NCBI GenBank assembly: GCA_902774265.1
Contig: CACYHR010000011.1
Coordinates: 43,613-89,402, forward strand
Source: an uncultured Eubacteriales bacterium
GTDB lineage: Bacteria > Bacillota > Clostridia > Peptostreptococcales > Anaerovoracaceae
Reading direction: 5' to 3'
DNA: 45,790 nucleotides
In this document: piece after piece, positions 10,156 through 34,665 of the stretch
How the letters are laid out: each line of letters begins with the position of its first letter
Numbering within the stretch: position 1 is the first letter of the stretch
Made by a program: the position numbers and the translations under genes
The notes under the pieces: generated by a model
What the model saw: the letters and a program-made list of their open reading frames with translations, nothing else
What the model was told of the DNA's origin: nothing
Database searches by the model: none

Positions 10156-11112
10156 ATGGCTGATATCATAACACTCGGAGAACTGCTTATAGATCTCACA
10201 CAGGGCGGCACTGATGAACTCGGCAACGGCAAATTTACGGCTTTTCCGGGAGGAGCACCGGCAAATGTCGCAGTTGCGGCGGCCAGACTTGGTGCTGAAA
10301 CAGGATTTATAGGTAAGGTAGGCAAAGACGCCTTCGGGCGCAGCCTGCGCGATACGCTGAAAAAAGAAGGTGTAGATATTTCAGGATTATATGAGGATGA
10401 AAATGAACCTACGACTCTCGCTATAGTGGCAGTCGATGATACAGGAGAGCGCGAGTTCTCATTCTACAGAAATCCGGGTGCGGATACGCAGCTGAGTGTC
10501 GATGAAGCGGTAGCAGCTCTTGGCAATATGCCTGAGATACTGCATATCGGTTCGCTTTCGATGACAAATTCTCCGTCAAAGGAAGCCTGTGTTGCTGCAG
10601 TCCGTTTCGCAAAAGAGGGCGGCGCTCTGATCAGCTATGATCCGAATTACCGCGGAGCTTTGTGGGACAGTGAAGAACGCGCTGTGGAAATGATGAAGAG
10701 CTTGCTTCCTGAAGCGGACATACTCAAGGTTTCCGATGAGGAAATGGTTATGCTTACAGGAACAGATGACTTTGAAGAGGGCAGCCGCATTCTGTCAGAA
10801 TACGGAATCAGACTGGTAATGGTCACACTGGGATCGGAAGGTGTATTCCTGAGATGCGGTGATATGACTGAAGCCATACCGGGATTCTCTGTAAAGGTAG
10901 CAGACACAAACGGCGCCGGAGACACTTTCCTCGGAGCTATGCTTGCTCAGCTGACAAAGCGCGGGAAAGAGAACGGAGGAGATCCGTTAGAGGGACTTGA
11001 CTGGGACGAGCTTAAATCTTATGTAAAATACGCAAACAAGGCAGCATCGATAACCTGCTCCCGCCACGGAGCTATACCGGCGATGCCAGTAGCAGAAGAA
11101 GTTATCCTATAG
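10156..11112 (+). CDS. scrK: Fructokinase, PfkB family
   Basis: This is a cytosolic ribokinase-like sugar kinase of 318 residues. It phosphorylates fructose released by the GH32 enzyme, feeding it to glycolysis. The family entry motif is GGAPANVAVAAARLGA near residue 35, and the ATP/anion-hole motif is DTNGAGDTF with catalytic base D256. The ribosome site GGAGGGGG is 7-8 bases before ATG 10156. It lies between the GH32 and amylosucrase genes in the same direction, with gaps of 85 and 23 bp, so the three probably form one sucrose operon. Other PfkB substrates cannot be excluded from sequence alone; context strongly favours fructose. Confidence 0.88.
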   Translation: MADIITLGELLIDLTQGGTDELGNGKFTAFPGGAPANVAVAAARLGAETGFIGKVGKDAFGRSLRDTLKKEGVDISGLYEDENEPTTLAIVAVDDTGEREFSFYRNPGADTQLSVDEAVAALGNMPEILHIGSLSMTNSPSKEACVAAVRFAKEGGALISYDPNYRGALWDSEERAVEMMKSLLPEADILKVSDEEMVMLTGTDDFEEGSRILSEYGIRLVMVTLGSEGVFLRCGDMTEAIPGFSVKVADTNGAGDTFLGAMLAQLTKRGKENGGDPLEGLDWDELKSYVKYANKAASITCSRHGAIPAMPVAEEVIL

Positions 11113-11135
11113 AGATACAGAAACGGATGTGAGTT

Positions 11136-13028
11136 ATGGCAAAGAAAAGTACTTTTGATATCCGTCTTGAGCAGTACATGGATGAGCTGAAATGGCTCTA
11201 TATGGAGATTTATGATGATCAGAACGCTTTTGATTATTTCATAAATATGCTCAAACGCAATTATAAGGAGCGCAAAGCGACTCTCAGAGAAGTGGATAAG
11301 AGGCGCGAGTCCAATCCGGATATACATCATTCCAATAAGATGATGGGAATGATGATGTACACTGAGAATTTCGGAGGTGATCTGCAGGGTGTCAGAGCCA
11401 GACTGGGTTATCTCAAGGAATGCGGCATAAAGTACATGCATCTGATGCCGCTGCTCGATTCTCCGGCTGACAGAGAGAGAAGCGACGGCGGATATGCGGT
11501 TTCGGATTTCCGCAAAATCAGACCGGACCTCGGGACAATGAAGGATCTCGAAGACCTGGCCGGTTCATGCCACAGACGCGGTATCAGGATCTGTCTGGAT
11601 TTCGTAATGAATCACACCAGTGAAGATCACGAATGGGCAAGAGCTGCAAGACAGGGCGATCCGGAGGCAATGGCCAGATATTTCTTCTACGATAACTGGG
11701 ATATTCCGAGCTGGTATGATCAGACAATGCCTCAGGTTTTCCCTGAAACAGCACCGGGCAATTTCACATATCTTCATGACTGCGGCAAGATCGTCATGAC
11801 TTCGTTCTATCCGTTCCAGTGGGATCTGAATTATGCCAACCCTATGGTTTTCAATGATATGACGGATAATATGCTGTATCTCGCCAACAGGGGCGTAGAT
11901 ATAATCAGACTTGATGCGGTGCCTTATATATGGAAGGAGCTCGGAACCAACTGCCGTAACCGACCGCAGGTACATACGCTGACAAGGATGATGAACATCG
12001 CCTGCCGCATAGTATGTCCGAGCGTACTTCTGCTTGGAGAGGTCGTGATGGAGCCGAAGGAGGTCGTTCCGTATTTCGGTACAGAGGACAAGCCTGAATG
12101 CGATATGCTCTATAATGTTACGACAATGTGCACTATCTGGCATACCCTTGCTACGAGAGATACAAGACTTCTCAAACATCAGCTTGAGATCACGGAAGGA
12201 CTGCCGTCAAACTGCATGTTCCAGAACTACCTCCGCTGTCATGATGATATAGGCTGGGGCCTCGATTACGGATATCTGGGATGGTTCGGGATCAGAGAGA
12301 GCACTCACAAAAAATACCTCAATGACTGGTTTACCGGGAAATGGCCGTTCAGCCCGTCAAGAGGAGAGACATATAATGATTCGGAAATGCTGCAGGATGC
12401 AAGGCTGTGCGGAACTGCTGCATCGCTTTGCGGCATAGAGTCTGCAGTCTATGAGCAGAATGAAGAGGGTATCGAAAGAGGCATTGACGCTGATGTTATG
12501 CTGCATGCTCTGATGCTGACTCTCAGAGGTATTCCTGTTTTCTACAGCGGCGATGAGATCGGTATGCTCAACGACTACTCATATCATGAAGATCCTTCCA
12601 AATGGGCTGACAGCAGAAATCTGCACAGAGGCAAATTCCGCTGGGATCTCGCTGAGGAAAGACATGATTCTTCTACCCTTACCGGCAAGGTGTTCGGCAG
12701 GATAAGCCAGCTGGCCAGGATCAGGAAATATAACGACATCTTCCATTCGGATGCGCGTACGCATGTTTTTGATACCGGGGACGACAGAGTATTGGGAATA
12801 GAACGTGAATACAACGGCAAGAAAATGATAGCACTTTTCAATTTCTCAGAGAATGAATGCCGTATCAATGTGGAAACAGCCGACTGGCTGGATATGATCG
12901 AGCCTCAGCGTGAATTCGTACCGGGTACAGGACGCAGGAGCGAATTGCTGCTTGAACCGTATGGGTTCCGCTGGTTCATAGCAAAGAAAAGGGATTTGAA
13001 AACGCCAAAAAAGGCAGTAAAGAGATAA
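11136..13028 (+). CDS. Amylosucrase-like glucosyltransferase, GH13 subfamily 4
   Basis: The protein has 630 residues and no signal peptide. Amylosucrases use sucrose to build alpha-1,4-glucan and release fructose; close relatives hydrolyse sucrose. The helical N-terminal domain (about 1-85) typical of the subfamily precedes the barrel. The GH13 triad is D260 (IIRLDAVPYIW), E302 (LLGEVVM) and D370 (RCHDDIGWG). Spacings of 42 and 68 residues are close to those of the well-studied Neisseria enzyme (42 and 65). Its place after GH32 and fructokinase fits sucrose use: the fructose could be phosphorylated next door while glucose is stored as glucan. Whether it polymerises or only hydrolyses is not decidable here. 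Confidence 0.82.
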   Translation: MAKKSTFDIRLEQYMDELKWLYMEIYDDQNAFDYFINMLKRNYKERKATLREVDKRRESNPDIHHSNKMMGMMMYTENFGGDLQGVRARLGYLKECGIKYMHLMPLLDSPADRERSDGGYAVSDFRKIRPDLGTMKDLEDLAGSCHRRGIRICLDFVMNHTSEDHEWARAARQGDPEAMARYFFYDNWDIPSWYDQTMPQVFPETAPGNFTYLHDCGKIVMTSFYPFQWDLNYANPMVFNDMTDNMLYLANRGVDIIRLDAVPYIWKELGTNCRNRPQVHTLTRMMNIACRIVCPSVLLLGEVVMEPKEVVPYFGTEDKPECDMLYNVTTMCTIWHTLATRDTRLLKHQLEITEGLPSNCMFQNYLRCHDDIGWGLDYGYLGWFGIRESTHKKYLNDWFTGKWPFSPSRGETYNDSEMLQDARLCGTAASLCGIESAVYEQNEEGIERGIDADVMLHALMLTLRGIPVFYSGDEIGMLNDYSYHEDPSKWADSRNLHRGKFRWDLAEERHDSSTLTGKVFGRISQLARIRKYNDIFHSDARTHVFDTGDDRVLGIEREYNGKKMIALFNFSENECRINVETADWLDMIEPQREFVPGTGRRSELLLEPYGFRWFIAKKRDLKTPKKAVKR

Positions 13029-27823: not shown

Positions 27824-28768
27824 ATGAACAAGAATGAAATCGTATTATTTGAAACTGACGACAATGAAGTGTCATTGCAGGTACAGATACAGGATGAGAC
27901 TGTGTGGCTGTCACGCAATCAGATGGCTGAGTTGTTTGACAGAGATGTCAAAACAATCGGCAAGCACATCAACAATGCAATCAGAGAAGAACTTGCTGGC
28001 CAAGTGGTAGTCGCAAAATTTGCGACCACCACTCAGCATGGTGCTATTCCAGGAAAGACTCAAACGCATATGACAGAATTTTACAATCTAGACGTAATCA
28101 TTTCTGTCGGCTATCGAGTCAAGTCTCAGCGTGGCGTGGAATTCCGCCGGTGGGCCAACTCGGTGCTCAAAGACTATATTCTCCGTGGCTATGCTGTTAA
28201 TGACAGAAGAATCAGCCAGCTCGGTCAGATCGTGCAGATCATGAAGCGTGCAGAGGATCAGCTGGATGCACAGCAGGTTCTTTCTGTTGTAGAGAGTTAT
28301 TCAGCTGCTCTGGATATGCTGGATGATTATGATCACCAGACGATGTCCAAGCCTAAAGGAAATAAGGCAACATATGTACTTTCTTATGATGAGTGCCGGG
28401 AGGTCATAGACAAAATGAAATTCGCCTCAGACAGCGACCTTTTCGGGAATGAAAAGGATGATTCTTTCAAGGGGTCAATAGGCGCGATATATCAGAGTTT
28501 TGACGGGAAAGATCTGTACCCTTCACTGGAAGAGAAGGCGGCCAATCTCCTGTACTTTGTCACAAAAAATCACAGCTTCTCAGATGGCAACAAGAGAATT
28601 GCGGCTACGATGTTTCTGTACCTTCTGGATAAAAATAAAGCCTTGTTTGTTGAAGGATCTAAGCGAATAGCAGATTTCACGCTTGTCGCTCTGACGATCA
28701 TGATTGCAGAGTCCAAGCCTGAAGAAAAAGAGATGATGATAAAAGTAATTATGAACTGTATGGTATAA
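27824..28768 (+). CDS. RhuM-Fic fusion protein
   Basis: This 314-residue protein carries two domains. The N-terminal part (about 1-150) is RhuM-like, with VSLQVQIQDETVWLSRNQMA and YNLDVIISVGYRVKSQRGVE. The C-terminal part (about 185-314) is Fic/Doc, with the active-site motif HSFSDGNKR, where H250 is the likely catalytic base. Fic enzymes transfer AMP or another phosphate-containing group to target proteins; Doc-type members act as toxins. RhuM was named from a Salmonella virulence locus and its biochemical role is unclear. It is the first gene of the accessory island, with GGAGG before its ATG, and the next small gene starts 11 bp after its stop. An antitoxin is not recognised. Confidence 0.85.
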   Translation: MNKNEIVLFETDDNEVSLQVQIQDETVWLSRNQMAELFDRDVKTIGKHINNAIREELAGQVVVAKFATTTQHGAIPGKTQTHMTEFYNLDVIISVGYRVKSQRGVEFRRWANSVLKDYILRGYAVNDRRISQLGQIVQIMKRAEDQLDAQQVLSVVESYSAALDMLDDYDHQTMSKPKGNKATYVLSYDECREVIDKMKFASDSDLFGNEKDDSFKGSIGAIYQSFDGKDLYPSLEEKAANLLYFVTKNHSFSDGNKRIAATMFLYLLDKNKALFVEGSKRIADFTLVALTIMIAESKPEEKEMMIKVIMNCMV

Positions 28769-29139: not shown

Positions 29140-29206
29140 AGCCTTATAGCATATGATATTATTCATAATTAAACTACAGGTTGAATTTACAAATACTTGA
29201 CAGCTG

Positions 29207-29215
29207 TGGTATATT
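29207..29215 (+). promoter_or_regulatory. Extended -10 promoter of the rtcB leader
   Basis: TGGTATATT is an extended -10 (TGnTATATT). TTACAA lies 17 bp before the hexamer as a weak -35. The HTH2 leader has the same arrangement at 32472-32480, which supports the call. Transcription would start near 29222, about 85 nt before the leader ORF. Confidence 0.6.
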
Positions 29216-29307
29216 CACAGAGGAAAAGAGAGGTCATGGCCCGGTGCGTGATATCACGTCTTAACCAACACATATAACCAAACACAGAAAGAGGAAAAAC
29301 AAACCAA

Positions 29308-29439
29308 ATGTCATATCTAAGATTTGCGCCGAAGAGCATAAATACAGAATCGAAACATCAGGGTATTGATCTGATGGGAAGTTGCTTTGCGTGCAAATAT
29401 GAGACAAGAAAAATCGGGGTACGGCATGATATAAGTTAG
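29308..29439 (+). CDS. Leader peptide of rtcB (43 aa), attenuator-linked
   Basis: This short ORF begins MSYLRFAPKSINTESKHQGI and ends CKYETRKIGVRHDIS. AGAGGA lies 12-13 bases before the ATG, a slightly long spacing. The composition is notable: 18 different amino acids are used within the first 26 codons and 19 overall (Trp is absent). Codons 31-34 (TAT GAG ACA AGA) overlap the 5' strand of an antiterminator. The stop codon lies in the loop of a hairpin, GTACGGC with GCCGTGC (29419-29425, 29439-29445). A related 41-codon ORF precedes the second HTH gene; the two share the end CKYE-T/M-R...VR. Regulation by ribosome stalling is inferred from this layout. Confidence 0.72.
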   Translation: MSYLRFAPKSINTESKHQGIDLMGSCFACKYETRKIGVRHDIS

Positions 29440-29508
29440 CCGTGCATGTTTTGAAGGATACAGAAATTCAGATCCGCTTGTCTCAAAACGAGATGAGCGG
29501 ATTTTTTT
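29397..29508 (+). promoter_or_regulatory. Transcription attenuator (antiterminator / terminator) before rtcB
   Basis: The terminator is ATCCGCTTGTCTC (29472-29484) paired with GAGATGAGCGGAT (29490-29502) through two G-U pairs, then seven Ts. The competing antiterminator is TGAGACAAG (29400-29408) paired perfectly with CTTGTCTCA (29477-29485). A third option, TCATAT (29311-29316) with ATATGA (29397-29402), would occupy the antiterminator strand when the leader is not translated. This is the 1:2 / 2:3 / 3:4 logic of amino-acid operon attenuators. The pairings are visible; the response is inferred. Confidence 0.72.
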
Positions 29509-29532
29509 ATAGCAGAAAGGATTTAGGAAAAA

Positions 29533-30732
29533 ATGTTACAGATCAAAGGCAAAGTGAATACAGCTATCTGCTTTGCCAGAGTAGTGGAAGATGAGGCGAT
29601 AGAGCAGATCCGCAGGATGTGCGATAACGAGATGACAAGAGGGAGCCGTATCAGGATCATGCCTGACGTGCACGCCGGCAAGGGCTGCACCATCGGTACG
29701 ACAATGACGATCACAGATAAGGCGGTACCTAATGTCGTAGGTGTAGATATCGGATGCGGTATGTACACAGTAAAGCTTGGCAAAACAGACATCGATTTTG
29801 AGAAGATTGACGAGGCCTGCCATATCATCCCATCAGGATTCGACACATGGGATGGTGTAAAGCGGCCGTTCGACCTGACAGAACTGAGATGTTACAGAGA
29901 ACTCAGAGATGCCAAGAGGTTGAACAGATCTCTCGGAACTCTCGGTGGTGGTAATCATTTCATCGAGATAGATGCAGCAGAGGATGGAACGAAATTTCTC
30001 GTCATCCACTCAGGATCAAGAAACCTGGGTAAGCAGGTAGCTGAGTTCTATCAGCAGCTGGCAATCGACCTGAACCACGGCAAGGAAGAGTACTTCGCAA
30101 AGCGTGATCAGATCATCGAGGAGTACAAGGCGACCGGCAGAAAGACAGAGATCCAGGCTGCACTGAAGGCTCTCAAGTGGGAGAAGAAGGATGCAGACGT
30201 ACCTGACGACCTCTGCTACCTGTACGGCACATACCTCGACGACTACCTGCACGATGTAGTGATCTGCCAGCGTTTTGCACTCGAGAACAGAGAGCACATG
30301 GCGGAGGTAATCCTCGAACATGCAGGGCTAGAGGCGCTTGACGCATTCCACACCATCCACAACTACATCGACACTGATGAAATGATTTTGCGTAAGGGAG
30401 CTATCTCCGCCCATGAGGGCGAGCTCGTGCTAATCCCTATCAACATGAGAGACGGCTCAGTCCTGGCAACAGGCAAGGGGAACCCTGACTGGAACTATTC
30501 TGCACCACACGGCGCAGGCAGGATCATGTCAAGAACAAAGGCCAGAGACGTAATTGAGATGGAGGACTACAGAAAGTCGATGGAGGGTATCTACACCACA
30601 TCGGTAAGTACAGCTACTCTGGATGAAGCACCAATGGCTTACAAGTCACTTGAAGACATCATAGATGTCATCGAGGAATCAGTAGACGTTATTGAAGTAT
30701 TAAGACCAATTTTCAACTATAAGGCAAGCTAG
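29533..30732 (+). CDS. rtcB: RNA-splicing ligase RtcB family protein
   Basis: RtcB joins a 2',3'-cyclic phosphate or 3'-phosphate RNA end to a 5'-OH end using GTP and Mn2+, and repairs tRNA or rRNA cut by nucleases. The 399-residue protein has the metal site motifs MPDVHAGKG and GVDIGCGM (C75), LGTLGGGNHFIEI and IHSGSRNLGKQV. The guanylated histidine is H326 in YSAPHGAGRIMSRTKA. All catalytic motifs are intact, and length is normal for the compact bacterial type. It is preceded by a leader-peptide attenuator and followed by an HTH gene and an array of tRNA genes, which points to tRNA repair as its job. No archease or RtcA gene is present. Confidence 0.95.
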   Translation: MLQIKGKVNTAICFARVVEDEAIEQIRRMCDNEMTRGSRIRIMPDVHAGKGCTIGTTMTITDKAVPNVVGVDIGCGMYTVKLGKTDIDFEKIDEACHIIPSGFDTWDGVKRPFDLTELRCYRELRDAKRLNRSLGTLGGGNHFIEIDAAEDGTKFLVIHSGSRNLGKQVAEFYQQLAIDLNHGKEEYFAKRDQIIEEYKATGRKTEIQAALKALKWEKKDADVPDDLCYLYGTYLDDYLHDVVICQRFALENREHMAEVILEHAGLEALDAFHTIHNYIDTDEMILRKGAISAHEGELVLIPINMRDGSVLATGKGNPDWNYSAPHGAGRIMSRTKARDVIEMEDYRKSMEGIYTTSVSTATLDEAPMAYKSLEDIIDVIEESVDVIEVLRPIFNYKAS

Positions 30733-30782: not shown

Positions 30783-31100
30783 ATGAACGTTAGAACGGTC
30801 GTCACCTGGACTGTCCCGGTGATCGACCTCAAGGCAACAGGACAGAACATCAAGACACTCCGTAAGTCTGCAGGTATCTCTGTAAGAGATCTCCAGGCTG
30901 TACTCGGATTCACTAACCCGCAGGCGATCTACAAGTGGCAGAACGGTAATTCACTCCCATCAATCGACAACCTTGTGATCCTTGCTGCGGTGCTCGGAGT
31001 CACCATCGACGAGATCCTCGTGACTGATGGTGACGAGACCGGCGACGGTAAGAACGATCAGGAGAGTCTTGCAATAACAGGCATTATTGCTCAGTGGTGA
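30783..31100 (+). CDS. HTH (XRE-like) DNA-binding protein 1
   Basis: The protein has 105 residues with one helix-turn-helix domain (about 17-80): ATGQNIKTLRKSAGISVRDL, then GFTNPQAIYKWQNGNSLPSI and DNLVILAAVLGVTIDEIL. It is a close paralogue of the protein at 32729. It starts 50 bp after rtcB and ends 47 bp before the first tRNA, so it belongs to the rtcB transcript. The likely role is control of the island, but no target site was identified. A mini-ORF ATGCAATGA just upstream overlaps the start and may couple translation. Confidence 0.85.
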   Translation: MNVRTVVTWTVPVIDLKATGQNIKTLRKSAGISVRDLQAVLGFTNPQAIYKWQNGNSLPSIDNLVILAAVLGVTIDEILVTDGDETGDGKNDQESLAITGIIAQW

Positions 31101-31147: not shown

Positions 31148-31223
31148 GTGGCATTGGTGTAATGGCCAAGCATATCAGTCTTCCAAACTGAAGGTTCGGG
31201 TTCGAATCCCGGATGCCGCTCCA
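31148..31223 (+). tRNA. tRNA-Gly(UCC)
   Basis: Acceptor GTGGCAT pairs with ATGCCGC; discriminator T; encoded CCA. The anticodon loop CTTCCAA gives UCC (GGA codons). It is the first tRNA of the array, 47 bp after HTH protein 1. Confidence 0.9.
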
Positions 31224-31226
31224 TAA

Positions 31227-31305
31227 GCTCCAGTATCCCAATCCTGGTAGAGGAAACGGAATGAGAGTCCGTACAGTACAGGTTCGAGTCCTGTCTGGAG
31301 CACCA
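31227..31305 (+). tRNA. tRNA-Leu(GAG), class I shape
   Basis: Acceptor GCTCCAG/CTGGAGC; discriminator A; CCA encoded. Anticodon stem ACGGA/TCCGT with loop ATGAGAG gives GAG. The variable region is only 5 nt (ACAGT), whereas bacterial Leu tRNAs normally have a long variable arm. The D-arm is large (19 nt). Confidence 0.8.
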
Positions 31306-31308
31306 ATC

Positions 31309-31352
31309 GTCATAAGGATTCCACCACCGCGAGCGGTGGTCCCCCTTGTGAC
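31309..31352 (+). repeat. Intra-array hairpin element, copy 1
   Basis: Outer stem GTCATAAGG (31309-31317) pairs with CCTTGTGAC (31344-31352) through one G-U pair. The inner stem is CCACCG with CGGTGG. It is not a tRNA: it has no CCA, T-arm or D-arm. A second copy lies at 34210-34255 with small compensating differences. It separates tRNA-Leu(GAG) from tRNA-Gly(GCC). Confidence 0.75.
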
Positions 31353-31358
31353 AAACTT

Positions 31359-31434
31359 GTGGCAGTAGTTCAGTAGGCAGAACATCGGCTTGCCAAGTCG
31401 AAGGTCACGGGTTCGAGACCCGTCTGTCACTCCA
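31359..31434 (+). tRNA. tRNA-Gly(GCC)
   Basis: Acceptor GTGGCAG/CTGTCAC; discriminator T; CCA encoded. The anticodon loop TTGCCAA gives GCC (GGC and GGU codons). Confidence 0.9.
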
Positions 31435-31438
31435 TTAT

Positions 31439-31516
31439 CGGGGCGTAGCTCAGTTTGCGCAGAACATCCGGCTTGGGACCGGAAGGTCGAGAGTTCGAAT
31501 CTCTCCACCCCGACCA
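31439..31516 (+). tRNA. tRNA-Pro(UGG)
   Basis: Acceptor CGGGGCG/CACCCCG with one C-A mismatch (6:67); discriminator A; CCA encoded. The anticodon loop CTTGGGA gives UGG. Confidence 0.9.
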
Positions 31517-31521
31517 CTCAT

Positions 31522-31605
31522 CGGCAGGTGGCACAGCGGCGACTGCAGGCGGCTGTAACCCGCTTACACAGAAACACGTAGGTTCGAGTCCTACCCTGCC
31601 GACCA
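31522..31605 (+). tRNA. tRNA-Tyr(GUA)
   Basis: Acceptor CGGCAGG/CCTGCCG; CCA encoded. The loop CTGTAAC gives GUA. It has the long variable arm expected of bacterial Tyr tRNA. Confidence 0.9.
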
Positions 31606-31610
31606 CATGT

Positions 31611-31686
31611 GTGCCTTTAACTCAATTGGGAGAGTGCCTGCCTTGCACGCAGGAAGCTGCGGGTTCAAGTCCCGCAAGGTACACCA
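31611..31686 (+). tRNA. tRNA-Ala(UGC)
   Basis: Acceptor GTGCCTT/AAGGTAC; discriminator A; CCA encoded. The anticodon loop CTTGCAC gives UGC. The acceptor has a G-T pair at 3:70, in line with the G3:U70 identity element of Ala tRNAs. Confidence 0.9.
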
Positions 31687-31692
31687 ACTATT

Positions 31693-31781
31693 GGAGAGAT
31701 AACCCTAATGGTAAGGGAGCGGTTTGCTAAACCGTCAGTAGCCTCGCCGGCGTGGAGGTTCAAATCCTCTTCTCTCCGCCA
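31693..31781 (+). tRNA. tRNA-Ser(GCU)
   Basis: Acceptor GGAGAGA/TCTCTCC; discriminator G; CCA encoded. The loop TTGCTAA gives GCU (AGC and AGU codons). A long variable arm is present. Confidence 0.9.
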
Positions 31782-31785
31782 ATAC

Positions 31786-31873
31786 GGATGGTTACCGAAA
31801 TGGTTATAACGGCGCGGTCCTGAAAACCGATGTGGCGAAAGCCCTGTGGGTTCGAATCCTACACCATCCGCCA
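31786..31873 (+). tRNA. tRNA-Ser(UGA)
   Basis: Acceptor GGATGGT/ACCATCC; discriminator G; CCA encoded. The loop CCTGAAA gives UGA. A long variable arm is present; the outer pair of the anticodon stem (G-A) is mismatched. Confidence 0.88.
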
Positions 31874-31878
31874 ATCAT

Positions 31879-31956
31879 GCTCCATTATCCCAATCTGGTA
31901 GAGGAGACGGATTCAGATTCCGTAAAGTGCAGGTTCGAATCCTGTGTGGAGCACCA
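31879..31956 (+). tRNA. tRNA-Leu(CAG), class I shape
   Basis: Acceptor GCTCCAT/GTGGAGC; discriminator A; CCA encoded. Stem ACGGA/TCCGT with loop TTCAGAT gives CAG. The variable region is 5 nt (AAAGT), with no long arm, as in the other two Leu-anticodon genes of the array. Confidence 0.8.
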
Positions 31957-31961
31957 ATTAT

Positions 31962-32036
31962 ATCTCGTTCGTCTAATGCAAAGGACACGGAGCTACGGAC
32001 TCCGGAATGCGGGTTGGATTCCTGCACGGGATACCA
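31962..32036 (+). tRNA. tRNA-Arg(ACG) with swapped 19-56 pair
   Basis: Acceptor ATCTCGT/ACGGGAT; discriminator A; CCA encoded. The loop CTACGGA gives ACG. The T-loop is TTGGATT, so position 56 is G instead of the near-universal C. The D-loop has GC instead of GG, so position 19 is C. The 19-56 tertiary pair is thus C-G instead of G-C. Confidence 0.85.
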
Positions 32037-32037
32037 T

Positions 32038-32113
32038 GATTCTCTCGTCTAACTGGTAGGACACCGGCCTCTTAATCCGGGAGATGTGAATTCGAATCTC
32101 ACGGGGATCACCA
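32038..32113 (+). tRNA. tRNA-Lys(CUU)
   Basis: Acceptor GATTCTC/GGGGATC; discriminator A; CCA encoded. The loop CTCTTAA gives CUU. The 31:39 pair is a C-T mismatch. It begins only one base after the preceding tRNA's CCA and strongly resembles the Lys(UUU) gene at 32196. Confidence 0.87.
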
Positions 32114-32117
32114 ATAA

Positions 32118-32192
32118 GCTCCTGTAGCACAACGGTAATGCAACTGCCTTGTAAGCAGTGGATTGTCGGTTCGAATCCGACTGGGAGCTCCA
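32118..32192 (+). tRNA. tRNA-Thr(UGU)
   Basis: Acceptor GCTCCTG/TGGGAGC; discriminator T; CCA encoded. Stem ACTGC/GCAGT with loop CTTGTAA gives UGU. Confidence 0.9.
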
Positions 32193-32195
32193 TAT

Positions 32196-32270
32196 GATTC
32201 TCTCGTCTAATGGTAGGACACCGGCCTTTTAAGCCGGGTGATGTGGGTTCGAATCCCACGGGGATCACCA
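32196..32270 (+). tRNA. tRNA-Lys(UUU)
   Basis: Acceptor GATTCTC/GGGGATC; CCA encoded. Stem CCGGC/GCCGG with loop CTTTTAA gives UUU. Confidence 0.92.
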
Positions 32271-32272
32271 AT

Positions 32273-32349
32273 GTTCCTGTAGCCCAATGGGCAGAGGCAG
32301 CAGGTTTAAACCCTGCAAAGTGTAGGTTCGACTCCTATCAGGAACACCA
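32273..32349 (+). tRNA. tRNA-Leu(UAA), class I shape
   Basis: Acceptor GTTCCTG/CAGGAAC; discriminator A; CCA encoded. Stem GCAGG/CCTGC with loop TTTAAAC gives UAA. The variable region is 5 nt (AAAGT). It is the third Leu-anticodon tRNA in the array lacking the long arm. Confidence 0.8.
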
Positions 32350-32354
32350 GTTAT

Positions 32355-32431
32355 TGCGGAGTGGCAGCAGTGGTTAGCTCAGCAGCCTCATAAGCTGAAG
32401 GTCGAGGGTTCGAATCCCTCCTCCGCAACCA
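32355..32431 (+). tRNA. tRNA with CAU anticodon (Met or Ile2)
   Basis: Acceptor TGCGGAG/CTCCGCA; discriminator A; CCA encoded. The loop CTCATAA gives CAU. The 1:72 pair is T-A and the anticodon stem lacks the three G-C pairs of initiators, so it is an elongator Met or an Ile2 tRNA, not initiator. It is the last gene of the first block; a short T-run follows. Confidence 0.82.
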
Positions 32432-32471
32432 TTTTTAAACTACAGCTTTACTATACAGGGTTCTGCACCAG

Positions 32472-32480
32472 TGATATATT
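32472..32480 (+). promoter_or_regulatory. Extended -10 promoter of the HTH2 leader
   Basis: TGATATATT is an extended -10 matching the one before the rtcB leader. Transcription would start near 32487, about 36 nt before the leader ORF. No clear -35 box is present. Confidence 0.55.
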
Positions 32481-32522: not shown

Positions 32523-32648
32523 ATGACTTACAGACTCATATGTGCACAGATCAACAGATTCGAACAAGACTTTCATATCATAGATTGGGAGAATGACTTT
32601 GTGTGCAAATATGAGATGAGATGGAAAGAGGTGCGGCAGCTGAGTTAG
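32523..32648 (+). CDS. Leader peptide of HTH2 (41 aa), attenuator-linked
   Basis: This short ORF begins MTYRLICAQINRFEQDFHII and ends CKYEMRWKEVRQLS. AAAGGA (32509-32514) is 8 bases before the ATG, a good ribosome site. It resembles the rtcB leader at both ends (M-S/T-Y...; CKYE-T/M-R...VR...S), while the middle is diverged. Seventeen or eighteen different amino acids are used; Gly and Pro are absent. The codons for YEMR overlap the antiterminator strand, and the stop codon lies in a hairpin loop (32631-32656). Preservation of ORF plus structure in two diverged copies argues that translation of this leader matters. Confidence 0.72.
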   Translation: MTYRLICAQINRFEQDFHIIDWENDFVCKYEMRWKEVRQLS

Positions 32649-32712
32649 TGCCGGACCGAATAGATAACGACATCATATCCGCTTGTCTCATATCTGGGAT
32701 AAGCGGTTTTTT
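32609..32712 (+). promoter_or_regulatory. Transcription attenuator before HTH2
   Basis: Terminator: CCGCTTGTC (32679-32687) pairs with GATAAGCGG (32698-32706), then six Ts (32707-32712). Antiterminator: ATATGAGATGAG (32609-32620) pairs with CTTGTCTCATAT (32682-32693), 12 bp with two G-U pairs. CTCATAT (32535-32541), early in the leader, can pair with ATATGAG (32609-32615). The scheme is the same as before rtcB, although the terminator arms have diverged. Confidence 0.72.
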
Positions 32713-32728
32713 ATACGGAGGAAACGAA

Positions 32729-33043
32729 ATGAGAACAGGATTGGCCGGCAGCAAGGTCCCGGCAGTAAATCTTAAAAAGACAGGTGAGAATATCAGAAGG
32801 ATGAGGAAAGAAGCAGGCATCTCAGTACGAGAGCTTCAGGTGATCTTCGGCTTCACCAACCCTCAGTCAATCTACAGCTGGCAGAACGGCAACAGCCTAC
32901 CGACGATCGATAACCTTATTATCCTGGCAGCAGTACTGGGAACAACGATCGACGAGATCATCGCTGTCGATACTGACAAACCGGAAGAAAGTGAAATCTC
33001 GTGCTTTTATCCCCAAATAAAAATATTTAATTCGGTCTCTTAG
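32729..33043 (+). CDS. HTH (XRE-like) DNA-binding protein 2
   Basis: The protein has 104 residues with one helix-turn-helix domain: KTGENIRRMRKEAGISVREL, GFTNPQSIYSWQNGNSLPTI and DNLIILAAVLGTTIDEII, closely matching the paralogue at 30783. ATG 32729 is chosen because CGGAGG lies 7 bases upstream and the terminator hairpin ends just before; the longer open frame runs through the leader. The last codons overlap the 5' end of the tRNA-Asn gene (33034-33109) by ten bases, so tRNA processing would cut this mRNA. It is probably a regulator of the island; target unknown. Confidence 0.82.
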   Translation: MRTGLAGSKVPAVNLKKTGENIRRMRKEAGISVRELQVIFGFTNPQSIYSWQNGNSLPTIDNLIILAAVLGTTIDEIIAVDTDKPEESEISCFYPQIKIFNSVS

Positions 33044-33109
33044 CTCAATAGGTAGAGCGGCACCCTGTTAAGGTGAGGGTTGCAGGTTCGATTCCTGCAG
33101 AGACCGCCA
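33034..33109 (+). tRNA. tRNA-Asn(GUU)
   Basis: Acceptor GGTCTCT/AGAGACC; discriminator G; CCA encoded. The loop CTGTTAA gives GUU. Its first ten bases contain the stop codon of HTH protein 2. Confidence 0.92.
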
Positions 33110-33112
33110 TAT

Positions 33113-33188
33113 GGTCTCCTCGTCTAAAGGAAAGGACGTCGGGTTTTCATCCCGGAAATGATGGGTTCAAGTCCCACGGAGATCACCA
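33113..33188 (+). tRNA. tRNA-Glu(UUC)
   Basis: Acceptor GGTCTCC/GGAGATC; discriminator A; CCA encoded. The loop TTTTCAT gives UUC. Confidence 0.9.
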
Positions 33189-33191
33189 TGT

Positions 33192-33266
33192 AGCCCTTTC
33201 GTCTAACTGGCAGGATGCCGGATTCTGATTCCGGAGGTGTGAGTTCGATTCTTGCAGGGGCTGCCA
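33192..33266 (+). tRNA. tRNA-Gln(CUG)
   Basis: Acceptor AGCCCTT/AGGGGCT; discriminator G; CCA encoded. Stem CCGGA/TCCGG with loop TTCTGAT gives CUG. Confidence 0.9.
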
Positions 33267-33269
33267 CAT

Positions 33270-33344
33270 ACTCCATTAGCTCAACGGATAGAGCATCGGT
33301 CTTCTAAACCGAGGATAAGAGTTCAATTCTCTTGTGGAGTGCCA
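33270..33344 (+). tRNA. tRNA-Arg(UCU)
   Basis: Acceptor ACTCCAT/GTGGAGT; discriminator G; CCA encoded. Stem TCGGT/ACCGA with loop CTTCTAA gives UCU. Confidence 0.9.
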
Positions 33345-33348
33345 ATAT

Positions 33349-33423
33349 GGTCCGTTCGTATAACGGCGATTATATCCGACTGTCTATCGGAAGACACGGG
33401 TTCAACTCCCGTACGGACCGCCA
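33349..33423 (+). tRNA. tRNA-Asp(GUC)
   Basis: Acceptor GGTCCGT/ACGGACC; discriminator G; CCA encoded. Stem TCCGA/TCGGA with loop CTGTCTA gives GUC. Confidence 0.92.
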
Positions 33424-33426
33424 CTT

Positions 33427-33500
33427 ATCCTGATAGTTCAACGGCAGAACAACGGTCTCCAAAACCGCAGATGGAAGTTCGAATCTTTCTCAGGGTGCCA
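33427..33500 (+). tRNA. tRNA-Trp(CCA)
   Basis: Acceptor ATCCTGA/TCAGGGT; discriminator G; CCA encoded. The loop CTCCAAA gives CCA. It is the last tRNA before the YkuK-like gene, 27 bp away. Confidence 0.9.
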
Positions 33501-33527
33501 AATACTAAGGAAAGGAGAGAGCATAAT

Positions 33528-34022
33528 ATGTGGAATTCAGAAACATACGGACAACTCGGTCTCAACGAGATCCCTGACAAGCTGATGCTTTTCTATGACA
33601 GAAATGCAGTATACGGAGAGCCTATGGAGCTTGCGATCGGTACAGATTCGCAAAACCATTGTGCCGGGACCAAAATCGTTACGGTAATATCCATGATCTG
33701 CAAAGGCCACGGCGGCATATTCTTCTATGAGACAGAGATCCGTGAACTCATCAAAGTGGTAAAGCAGAAGCTTGAGACGGAGACGTATATAAGTCTTGAG
33801 ACCGCGAAGGATCTTCTTGATGAGCTGGATGACGACAGATATCGAATCCTTACCGACAATTGTCCTCTCTCCATTCACATCGATGCAGGCAATGCGCCTC
33901 ATGGTAAAACGAGAGATCTCATCCTGGCCCTTACCGGATGGGTGCATGCAATGGGCTATGAATGCGAAGTAAAGCCGGATTCATACTCAGCATCAACAAT
34001 AGCTGACAGGATCAGCAAATAA
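33528..34022 (+). CDS. YkuK-type RNase H-like protein (DUF458)
   Basis: This 164-residue cytosolic protein lies inside the tRNA array. The pattern AIGTDSQNHCAGTKIVTVIS, then IHIDAGNAPHGKTRDLILAL and VHAMGYECEVKPDSYSASTI is that of the YkuK/DUF458 family, predicted to share the RNase H fold. Acidic residues that could bind metal are D in GTDSQ, D in HIDAG and D in KPDS. Its substrate is not known; involvement in tRNA processing, turnover or repair is suggested only by position. ATG 33528 is preceded by AAGGAGAG; upstream in-frame codons belong to tRNA genes. It must be transcribed with the flanking tRNAs. Confidence 0.82.
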   Translation: MWNSETYGQLGLNEIPDKLMLFYDRNAVYGEPMELAIGTDSQNHCAGTKIVTVISMICKGHGGIFFYETEIRELIKVVKQKLETETYISLETAKDLLDELDDDRYRILTDNCPLSIHIDAGNAPHGKTRDLILALTGWVHAMGYECEVKPDSYSASTIADRISK

Positions 34023-34048
34023 CATGCGATCGGTATGGTCGCTGTTAA

Positions 34049-34122
34049 TGTCCCTTCGTCTAATGGAAGGACATCAGATTTTGATTCTGACGGTGCAGGT
34101 TCGAATCCTGCAGGGGCAGCCA
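34049..34122 (+). tRNA. tRNA-Gln(UUG)
   Basis: Acceptor TGTCCCT/AGGGGCA; discriminator G; CCA encoded. Stem TCAGA/TCTGA with loop TTTTGAT gives UUG. Confidence 0.92.
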
Positions 34123-34129
34123 ATAATAT

Positions 34130-34206
34130 ACGCACTTAACTCAGTGGTCCAGAGTACCCGTCTGATACGCGGGCGGTCCGCAGTTCGAATCTGCGAGTGC
34201 GTACCA
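34130..34206 (+). tRNA. tRNA-Ile(GAU)
   Basis: Acceptor ACGCACT/AGTGCGT; discriminator A; CCA encoded. The loop CTGATAC gives GAU. The second hairpin element follows. Confidence 0.9.
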
Positions 34207-34209
34207 ATC

Positions 34210-34255
34210 GTCATAAGGGATCCACCACCGCAGAGCGGTGGTCCCCCCTTGTGAC
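34210..34255 (+). repeat. Intra-array hairpin element, copy 2
   Basis: The second copy of the element at 31309-31352: GTCATAAGGG pairs with CCCTTGTGAC, with an inner CCACCG/CGGTGG stem. It is two bases longer than copy 1, with changes that keep the stems. Both copies follow a tRNA 3' end through the same ACCAATC junction. Confidence 0.75.
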
Positions 34256-34261
34256 AAGCAC

Positions 34262-34337
34262 GGTCCCCTCGTCTAAAGGGTAGGACACCAGACTCTCAAT
34301 CTGGAAATGCAGGGTTCAAGTCCCGCGGGGATCACCA
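34262..34337 (+). tRNA. tRNA-Glu(CUC)
   Basis: Acceptor GGTCCCC/GGGGATC; discriminator A; CCA encoded. Stem CCAGA/TCTGG with loop CTCTCAA gives CUC. Confidence 0.9.
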
Positions 34338-34344
34338 ATAATGT

Positions 34345-34421
34345 GTGGGTCGTAGCTTAATTGGTAAAGCACCGGATTGTGGCTCCGGCATATGCAGGTT
34401 CAAGTCCTGTCGATCCTCCCA
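34345..34421 (+). tRNA. tRNA-His(GUG)
   Basis: The extra 5' G (-1) faces discriminator C, the His identity pair. The remaining acceptor is TGGGTCG/CGATCCT with a T-T mismatch at 1:72. The loop TTGTGGC gives GUG; CCA encoded. Confidence 0.88.
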
Positions 34422-34426
34422 GTTAT

Positions 34427-34503
34427 GAGCACGTGTCCCAGTGGTCTAAGGAGGCGGGTTGCAACCCCGTTGTTCGCTGGTTCGAATCCAGCCGTGCTCT
34501 CCA
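34427..34503 (+). tRNA. tRNA-Cys(GCA)
   Basis: Acceptor GAGCACG/CGTGCTC; discriminator T (typical for Cys); CCA encoded. The loop TTGCAAC gives GCA. Confidence 0.92.
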
Positions 34504-34506
34504 TAT

Positions 34507-34582
34507 GGTAATGTAGCTCAGTTGGTAGAGCGTCCGGTTGAAGCCCGGAAGGTCGCTGGTTCAAGCCCAGCCGTTACCACCA
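34507..34582 (+). tRNA. tRNA-Phe(GAA)
   Basis: Acceptor GGTAATG/CGTTACC; discriminator A; CCA encoded. Stem TCCGG/CCGGA with loop TTGAAGC gives GAA. Confidence 0.92.
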
Positions 34583-34586
34583 ATAT

Positions 34587-34665
34587 GGTGAAGTAGCTCA
34601 GCAGGTTAGAGCGGCGGCCTTATAAGCCGTGTCAGTCGCCGGTTCAAGTCCGGCCTTCACTACCA
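34587..34665 (+). tRNA. tRNA-Ile(UAU)
   Basis: Acceptor GGTGAAG/CTTCACT; discriminator A; CCA encoded. Stem GCGGC/GCCGT with loop CTTATAA gives UAU, which reads AUA directly. Most bacteria instead use a CAU anticodon modified to lysidine. The variable region is 7 nt. It is the last tRNA of the array. Confidence 0.88.

Follow-up and report, generated by a model that had tools for sequence, protein, structure and literature searches.

Arrays of tRNA genes are common in bacteria, phages and mobile elements, but little is known of the conditions and reasons for their expression. The stretch of DNA studied here (the window; 45,790 nucleotides of contig CACYHR010000011.1 from an uncultured Eubacteriales bacterium) raises this question in compact form, as it carries an island of 28 tRNA genes (ARAGORN) preceded by rtcB and a small XRE-type gene, with a second leader inside the array. 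What, then, would switch such an array on? The island, all of it on the forward strand, consists of two units. Unit A comprises leader A, rtcB, encoding an RNA ligase (29533-30732; PF01139 RtcB, E 5.5e-57), the gene for small XRE-type HTH protein 1 (30783-31100; PF01381 HTH_3, E 9.6e-12) and 15 tRNA genes (31148-32431; Gly Leu Gly Pro Tyr Ala Ser Ser Leu Arg Lys Thr Lys Leu Met), which together cover Gly, Leu, Pro, Tyr, Ala, Ser, Arg, Lys, Thr and Met. Unit B comprises leader B, the gene for small XRE-type HTH protein 2 (32729-33043; PF01381, E 2.5e-9) and 13 tRNA genes (33034-34665; Asn Glu Gln Arg Asp Trp, then Gln Ile Glu His Cys Phe Ile), covering Asn, Glu, Gln, Arg, Asp, Trp, Ile, His, Cys and Phe; an RNase H-like gene (33528-34022; PF04308, E 2.1e-36) lies inside this tRNA array, between Trp and the second Gln. 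The whole genome gave 69 Rfam tRNA matches, 26 of which are in the array, indicating that the array is extra. Ten neighbouring genes were analysed with Pfam, and several are ordinary chromosomal ones (e.g. WhiA, an AI-2E transporter and a dehydratase subunit).

Some further features of the island and its surroundings were observed. The three Leu tRNAs of the array (31227-31305, 31879-31956 and 32273-32349) are 77-79 nt long and have short variable loops, bacterial Leu tRNAs being usually long-armed. Two near-alike hairpins (GTCATAAGG...CCACCACCGC..GCGGTGGT...CCTTGTGAC) are located between tRNA genes, at about 31308-31354 and 34209-34257, and are perhaps decayed tRNAs or processing signals. A gene for a RhuM/Fic-domain protein (27824-28768) is located two ORFs upstream of leader A.

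In front of rtcB the earlier note had described a leader-peptide attenuator, consisting of a 43-codon ORF, a 9-bp antiterminator and a terminator exclusive with it. This anatomy was borne out, with two amendments. Leader ORF A (MSYLRFAPKSINTESKHQGIDLMGSCFACKYETRKIGVRHDIS; 29308-29439, forward strand), taken from the ORF listing of the window and conserved in relatives, indeed has 43 codons, an ATG start and the sequence AGAGGA upstream. Within it, TGAGACAAG (29400-29408) is the exact complement, over 9 bp, of CTTGTCTCA (29477-29485), which is also part of the 5′ arm of the terminator at 29470-29504. By complementarity and folding, the former constitutes strand 2, the 5′ arm of the antiterminator (UGAGACAAG; 29400-29408, forward strand). 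The antiterminator stretch (29394-29486), when folded alone, reached -28.2 kcal/mol (z -4.7), and none of 200 shuffled versions was as stable; the same was found for the terminator stretch (29465-29510; -21.8 kcal/mol, z -6.95, 0/200 shuffles as stable). Intrinsic terminator A, identified by terminator search and folding, spans 29470-29508 on the forward strand and is made up of strand 3 (29477-29485), strand 4 and a T-run that ends 24 nt before rtcB. Its mutual exclusion with the antiterminator stood, but its stem has 15 pairs instead of the 13 bp given before. The second amendment concerns a pairing that had been missed: strand 1 (AUUUGCGC; codons 5-8, 29322-29329, forward strand) pairs with the region of strand 2, its partner GCGUGCAAAU lying just 5′ of that strand, and the calculated energy of this duplex is -15.1 kcal/mol (z -3.5 compared to codon shuffles). 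Folding also predicted a hairpin at the stop codon of leader A (GUACGGC/GCCGUGC; 29419-29445, forward strand), which is compatible with the antiterminator and whose letters vary among relatives. Separately, a 13-codon ORF (MARCVISRLNQHI) having a strong Shine-Dalgarno-like sequence was observed upstream of leader A, at 29236-29277.

The part of the leader that precedes the switch, which we refer to as the sensor (codons 2-28 in leader A), contains 18 different amino acids, as had been noted. Random 27-residue pieces of window proteins contain 13.7 on average (sd 1.6), and the probability of finding 18 or more is 0.008. All ten amino acids of unit A are present in this sensor. A similar arrangement precedes unit B. 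Leader ORF B (MTYRLICAQINRFEQDFHIIDWENDFVCKYEMRWKEVRQLS; 32523-32648, forward strand, from the ORF list) contains all ten amino acids of unit B, which account for 21 of its 26 sensor codons. Its strand 1 (CUCAUAUGUGCACA; 32535-32548) has a single mismatch to the complement of UGUGCAAAUAUGAG at 32602-32615, giving a duplex of -18.3 kcal/mol (z -3.2). Strand 2 (AUAUGAGAUGAG; 32609-32620), assigned from sequence and folding, has its partner CUUGUCUCAUAU in strand 3; the antiterminator fold has an energy of -33.4 kcal/mol (z -3.4), and intrinsic terminator B is located at 32679-32712 (-18.0 kcal/mol, z -7.0), all on the forward strand. Together, these results support that the leader A region has the anatomy of a leader-peptide attenuator and that its broad codon set is a real feature. 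The design goes beyond chance, since it is repeated at 32523-32712 in the window and was found in relatives by profile or covariance model, as described below.

Upstream of leader A, the promoter region (29169-29215, forward strand, by sequence match) contains an inverted repeat (TTAAACTACAGGTTGAA), which has one mismatch to the motif and begins 139 nt before the leader ATG, followed by a promoter-like match at 29186-29215 (TTTACA and TATATT separated by 18 nt). The same repeat (TTAAACTACAGCTTTAC, two mismatches) and a TATATT box were matched upstream of unit B (32435-32480, forward strand). In most copies a TTAAAC-N5-GTTTAA-like repeat directly precedes the promoter boxes; with at most four mismatches it was found in 49 of 67 upstream regions, and the mean number of mismatches was 3.5 vs 7.0 in shuffles, the consensus being derived from the same 67-region set on which it was scored. 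We consider this repeat a putative operator of the small XRE protein, which would add a second layer of control.

Relatives of the leaders were searched for with a peptide profile built from the two leaders, which found copies within the same genus. A 13-leader profile gave 35 matches at E<=0.01, spread over 15 of the 47 genomes of the genus, and a 26-leader profile, run on the 349 genomes of the family, matched 20 at E<=0.002. Among the latter, G056 (peptide E 0.0015) was rejected as the covariance model gave an E of only 0.29 at that locus (L136). This covariance model was built without regard to the ORF and run on a sample of 345 genomes of the order. It produced 31 listed matches, 15 of them at E<=1e-4, which correspond to the 12 training copies plus three new ones; all 15 have an ATG ORF, although only three are independent of model building. 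Matches having E>=1e-3 (16 of the 31 rows) were dropped, and behind 14 of these 16 loci (L088-L100 and L107) neither rtcB nor an XRE gene of this type was seen by eye. Two of the dropped loci, L098 and L099 (covariance-model E 0.077 and 0.092), have a methyltransferase-like gene behind a candidate leader (MKTLFASANVNNNNTTLNNHQGDSFRSHIRGKKR), an antiterminator-like pair (AGAGGCAAGAAGC/GCTTGTCTCT) and a terminator; this is probably a separate system. Members with a named source (eight loci) come from goat and sheep gut MAGs, classed as Mogibacterium sp., and from RUG assemblies of uncultured Clostridiales.

In this way 41 leaders of what we call the first family were tabulated; G305:C45:16-117, at a contig edge, and G300:C91 and G304:C68:7202 (fetched as L145 and L146) were left out. 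An ATG ORF of 39-46 codons spans the antiterminator strand in 41/41 leaders, and a Shine-Dalgarno-like motif defined by a simple pattern is present in 38, those of L069, L071 and L074 being the exceptions. Homologous leaders that keep the structure without the ORF were looked for and none was seen among the 41, a result obtained largely by construction because most copies were first found via the peptide profile. The first of five sought genes behind the leader is rtcB in 15 cases, an XRE gene in 20 and an RNase H-like gene in four; none of the five follows L039 and the second leader of L077, and both are followed by tRNAs. Among relatives more widely, tRNA genes stand first behind the leader in L039, L206 and L222. 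Eight of the 41 leaders have no tRNA gene in the fetched stretch: six of these precede rtcB, one precedes an XRE gene, a DUF2828/DUF7788 gene and rtcB, and one precedes an RNase H-like gene. The proposal that RtcB is the output controlled by the leader therefore holds only in part: rtcB belongs to unit A, but the main output is tRNAs, and rtcB comes first behind only 15 of the 41 leaders.

Other genes recur in these units. Relatives of the RNase H-like gene were observed behind several other leaders and are the sole match of the five genes in L072, L075 and L078. In the leader units of several relatives, a DUF2828/DUF7788 gene joins rtcB and the XRE gene and lies downstream of the two (e.g. 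L033, 9748-11340); the L033 gene had by eye resembled Ro60/TROVE, but Pfam gave DUF2828 and DUF7788 and no TROVE match. In L118, a gene that looks DUF2828/DUF7788-like (10480-12290) has two tRNA-like sequences at its flanks, one with a closing stem of GGCACG/CGTGCC and the other of GGCGCGG/CCGCGCC; by appearance the two are relatives of Y RNAs.

Leader codons tend to correspond to the tRNAs encoded in the same unit. For 11 hand-picked first-family representatives, permutation of the units gave an in-unit codon fraction of 0.593 vs 0.449 (p 1e-5) and a coverage of unit amino acids of 0.953 vs 0.803 (p 1.5e-5). When the window's own pair and the B-like L071 were omitted (n=8), the p values were 5e-5 for the fraction and 3e-4 for the coverage. 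Compared with random pieces of window proteins, single leaders are often not significant alone; p<0.05 was reached in 5/11 by in-unit count and in 5/11 by coverage. Locus L118, which belongs to another genus, illustrates the match: leader MIFNRQYLPTIEQTHRSHFNYGGGSDCLLC, before Ser Leu Cys Pro His Thr Gly, contains all seven amino acids, and leader MLNKSIFAQMMNRFMEQRSFDRNIDQEQSFAC, before Glu Arg Met Gln Arg Phe Ile, contains all six. Loci having two leaders and two units allow an internal comparison, and in 12/12 the amino acids exclusive to a unit are enriched in its own leader (Fisher p 0.0019-0.094 each, several of the loci being closely related). At the level of codon boxes, CGN codons make up 12/22 Arg codons where the unit has Arg(ACG) and 2/28 where it does not (first family, related copies). 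Box agreement in this family is mixed for Ser and Leu, and clear for Arg CGN and for units whose Leu is TTR only.

A second family, from the same class, was reached via the small XRE protein; close relatives of XRE protein 1 adjoin tRNA genes there too. An XRE match at E<=1e-14 was present in 115/319 genomes, and 40 regions were fetched, 24 of which contain tRNAs on the same strand. Leaders were called by a pipeline blind to composition, which required a terminator at most 250 nt from a tRNA or XRE gene, an ATG ORF with a Shine-Dalgarno-like motif and an antiterminator of at least 7 bp; the rule for choosing among ORFs (ATG start, stop nearest the terminator) was fixed after preliminary leader output had been seen. 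The pipeline yielded 26 rows from 19 of the 24 tRNA-bearing loci and no leader in the other five (L207, L208, L233, L234 and L237). Tested on the 25 rows that have tRNAs, the in-unit codon fraction was 0.326 vs 0.194 (sd 0.018) and the coverage of unit amino acids 100% vs 79%, each with p 5e-6, the lowest value that the test can give. The rows include a false leader located within an XRE gene; it was part of this test and was removed from the combined set described below. Clear cases are a leader MRSTMMMREMNMRR... before two tRNA-Met genes and a leader MFTLFLRRPHTMREMAPFRRMNRGFRNM... before two tRNA-Arg genes, the first and second leaders of L222. The leaders of this family include MRSTMMMREMNMRRLTAYARSMFN (before Met Met), MNTMIHNYCFNQISQQSALFCKSQQGFKF (before Phe Ile Ser Lys Cys Gln Gln), MKCINVLSSSYVLYLSLLLYGSK (before Tyr Leu Leu Leu Leu Ser Ser) and MLYAATMIFRQHEQEKERCWHRQERQF (before Trp Gln Lys Glu Glu Phe Cys Gln Arg Arg His).

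Five leaders obtained later (L246, L247, L252, L276 and L255) cover 20/21 unit amino acids by counts only; the same ORF and terminator rule was used, and the leaders were picked from lists by eye and their sensors cut by hand. The one amino acid missed is one of two in the unit of L247, where a 93-nt 'Pro' tRNA call may be wrong. The 250-nt limit was not applied throughout, and about 1.4 kb separate the leader of L255 from its XRE gene. A leader-like ORF without tRNA was found in L254. Among 40 more second-family loci having weaker XRE matches, three have same-strand tRNAs and one a leader, and a plasmid search with one second-family XRE protein gave no match at E 1e-12. In L246, L252 and L255 the leader-XRE-tRNA units are on contigs classed as viral (IMG/VR) or phage (MT839421), L255 being a faecal phage record, which suggests that some of the arrays may be carried by prophages or by mobile elements of other kinds.

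Combining both families gave 57 leader/unit pairs. The fraction of codons belonging to the own unit was 0.443 vs 0.304 when units were swapped (z 10.2), and coverage was 0.973 vs 0.798 (z 7.0). For 15 representatives sharing less than 38% identity the fraction was 0.483 vs 0.304 (z 5.7, p 3e-6), with a z of 4.2 for coverage. Nineteen of the 20 amino acids are commoner in leaders whose unit holds their tRNA, the exception being Asn, and Ala barely differs. For some tRNAs of a unit the leader has no codon; this mostly concerns Trp, whose codon is present in 10/15 leaders that have a Trp tRNA.

The position and reading frame of this signal were informative. In 51 leaders having a tail of at least six residues, the sensor gave a z of 9.1 and the tail past strand 2 a z of -0.5. 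The codon excess occupies most positions between 22 and 2 codons ahead of strand 2 and is no longer seen once strand 2 begins. Over the 57 pairs, frame 0 gave a z of 10, frame +1 a z of -2.3 and frame +2 a z of 0.8; over the 15 representatives frame +2 gave a z of 1.7 (p 0.047). One antisense frame gave a z of 2.6 (coverage z 3.6) over 57 pairs and of 2.4 over the representatives, an excess that may be explained by shared codons. For two leader types (nine distinct sequences each) pN/pS was 0.39 and 0.32 in the sensor and 0.69 and 1.32 in the tail, and between strands 1 and 2 of the leader A type it was 0.39. The sensor codons are thus under purifying selection in both leader types, and the tails less so. 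Together these results show that the leader codons nearly list the amino acids for which tRNAs are encoded in the same transcription unit. The earlier note had suggested that a delay of the ribosome at almost any codon, hence damage to any of many tRNAs, would be sensed; this proposal was correct in type but not in breadth, as the codons follow the tRNA list of the own unit and differ between units.

The pairings were analysed across both families. In the first family, the strand 1:2 pairing had a mean z of -2.0 over 37 distinct leaders compared to codon-shuffled versions, strand 1 corresponding to codons 5-8 in leader A and 5-9 in leader B; in the second family, codons 1-18 gave a mean z of -0.2 (21 leaders). 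The strand 2:3 pairing gave a z of +2.3 in the first family (38 distinct leaders) and of +2.0 in the second (25), where antiterminators are individually weak (10/25 at p<=0.05) and pairing was a selection criterion. The strand sequences differ between the families and the pairing stays. Likewise, the antiterminator of the first L118 leader differs (GATAAGCAGT/ACTGCTTATC), so that pairing is kept while letters change. Most checklist codons are located between strands 1 and 2.

Based on these results we propose, with a probability of roughly 0.8, that these leaders are four-strand ribosome-mediated transcription attenuators in which the leader peptide serves as a checklist for the tRNAs that its unit encodes. 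The computation established the ORFs, the mutually exclusive pairings and their conservation, and a frame-specific match of codons to units that ends at strand 2. Translation of the leader, stalling and readthrough are predicted from the sequence, and would act as follows. Without translation, or with a fast ribosome, strand 1 would pair with strand 2, the terminator (strands 3 and 4) would form and the tRNA unit would be off. This OFF state needs the strand 1:2 pairing, because a ribosome at the stop codon (29437) would not reach strand 2; in the second family it lacks such an account, as strand 1:2 is unsupported there at codons 1-18. When a listed tRNA is scarce, cleaved or uncharged, the ribosome would wait in the sensor between strands 1 and 2 and hold them apart. 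Strand 2 could then take strand 3, the terminator could not form, and RNA polymerase would continue through rtcB and the XRE gene to the spare tRNAs. Expression of the unit would restore the tested tRNAs as new copies, and RtcB, where present, would repair broken ones. Loss of tRNA would presumably be the natural signal of the leaders.

We lean only slightly towards the wider interpretation, according to which each leader would be a test strip for exactly the tRNAs of its unit and the design a general self-control of tRNA supply. A single loss, for instance by anticodon nucleases in phage-host conflict, would free the full replacement set, together with the RNA ligase where present, and the list would be rewritten by evolution at each change of the unit. 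If this is true, the control of an array can be read from its DNA, the leader naming the tRNA losses that switch the array on, and predictions can be tested by altering small numbers of codons. Classical attenuation would then be broadened from amino acids to the tRNAs themselves, leader and array would be seen to evolve together, and there would be a natural sensor of tRNA cleavage, which is central to phage defence and counter-defence.

A possible but on balance doubtful alternative retains the same attenuator and assigns it another natural signal, namely amino-acid starvation or ribosomes slowed by translation-blocking antibiotics. Stalling looks alike whatever its cause, and excerpts of two reports are in line with such a signal: the Anabaena operon of 26 tRNAs and rtcB are induced by translation-targeting antibiotics (PMC10272220), and a single E. 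coli uORF reports several antibiotic classes (PMC12121999). Starvation, however, would not be cured by extra tRNA or RNA ligase, and the codon boxes partly follow the isoacceptor, as seen for Arg CGN with Arg(ACG) in the unit or not (12/22 vs 2/28). Far less probable is that the leader ORF encodes a functional small protein or is a hypothetical gene, the terminator simply marking the end of its transcript. The peptide is conserved within each leader type, with pN/pS below 1, but its composition follows the tRNA unit and not a protein family, peptides across units and families share little sequence, and the antiterminator sits inside the ORF. We also regard direct, T-box-like sensing, in which the codons would be specifiers read by uncharged tRNA without translation, as very improbable. 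The T-box mechanism is common in Firmicutes, and codons that match tRNAs would fit it; however, up to about ten amino acids per leader would require equally many specifiers, and the signal is mainly in one reading frame that has a start and a stop. In addition, neither a T-box nor any other Rfam leader family reached the gathering score in the window or in ten second-family loci, where only tRNAs matched. At E<=10, the region 29150-29560 of the window gave five weak Rfam matches, none to a T-box; the only candidates for a known leader, FuFi-1 (E 0.38) and Trp_leader (E 2), were rejected as none reached the gathering score. Finally, that related leaders and arrays were co-inherited and match without functional meaning is scarcely credible and already largely refuted: many leaders are homologous and the idea was formed on part of the data, but the z of 5.7 persists over representatives below 38% identity, the match was replicated in a second family having unrelated peptides and agrees with five loci examined afterwards, the tails used as a control give no signal, and over the 57 pairs the remaining forward frames lack an excess.

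We therefore return to the tRNA checklist attenuator in comparing these leaders with known systems. RtcB RNA-repair operons are known, and the units of several relatives resemble them in joining rtcB, XRE and DUF2828/DUF7788 genes; unlike these operons, the unit described here ends in a near-complete tRNA set and is, by prediction, attenuated. According to excerpts of PMC12121999, toiL is a multipurpose E. coli uORF upstream of topAI-yjhQ that senses several antibiotics. It is similar to the present leaders in that one short ORF reports many kinds of ribosome stalling, and differs from them in controlling translation and Rho-dependent termination of a toxin-antitoxin gene; in its abstract the codons are tied to no tRNA genes.

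The nearest biological parallel is the trn operon of Anabaena and the TrcR regulon (PMC10272220). There, a silent operon of 26 tRNAs and rtcB are repressed by TrcR and induced by translation antibiotics. Both systems have a long extra tRNA operon, and rtcB belongs to the same regulon in Anabaena. The Anabaena operon is kept off and is raised by translation stress, a behaviour that would be predicted for the island. The repressor TrcR is a ribbon-helix-helix protein that acts at the promoter, unlike the island, which has an XRE-type gene plus an attenuator, with rtcB inside the same unit. Pfam gave no ribbon-helix-helix match among four proteins of units A and B (RtcB, the two XRE-type HTH_3 proteins and the RNase H-like protein), and a word search of the main text of PMC10272220 for 'attenuat' or 'leader' gave no match.

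In mechanism, these leaders most likely work like leader-peptide transcription attenuation of amino-acid operons (trp, his, thr and ilv), modelled in PMC1183508. Among the matches listed in the open-licence PMC literature, no report of tRNA genes under leader-peptide attenuation was found. Both have a short leader with regulatory codons, translated in the amino-acid operons and predicted to be so here, and mutually exclusive antiterminator and terminator structures, and in both the codons are cognate to the product of the operon (PMC1183508). The operon described here, however, makes tRNAs, plus an RNA ligase, and not an amino acid, and a single leader can name as many as ten or eleven amino acids, tracking the tRNA set.
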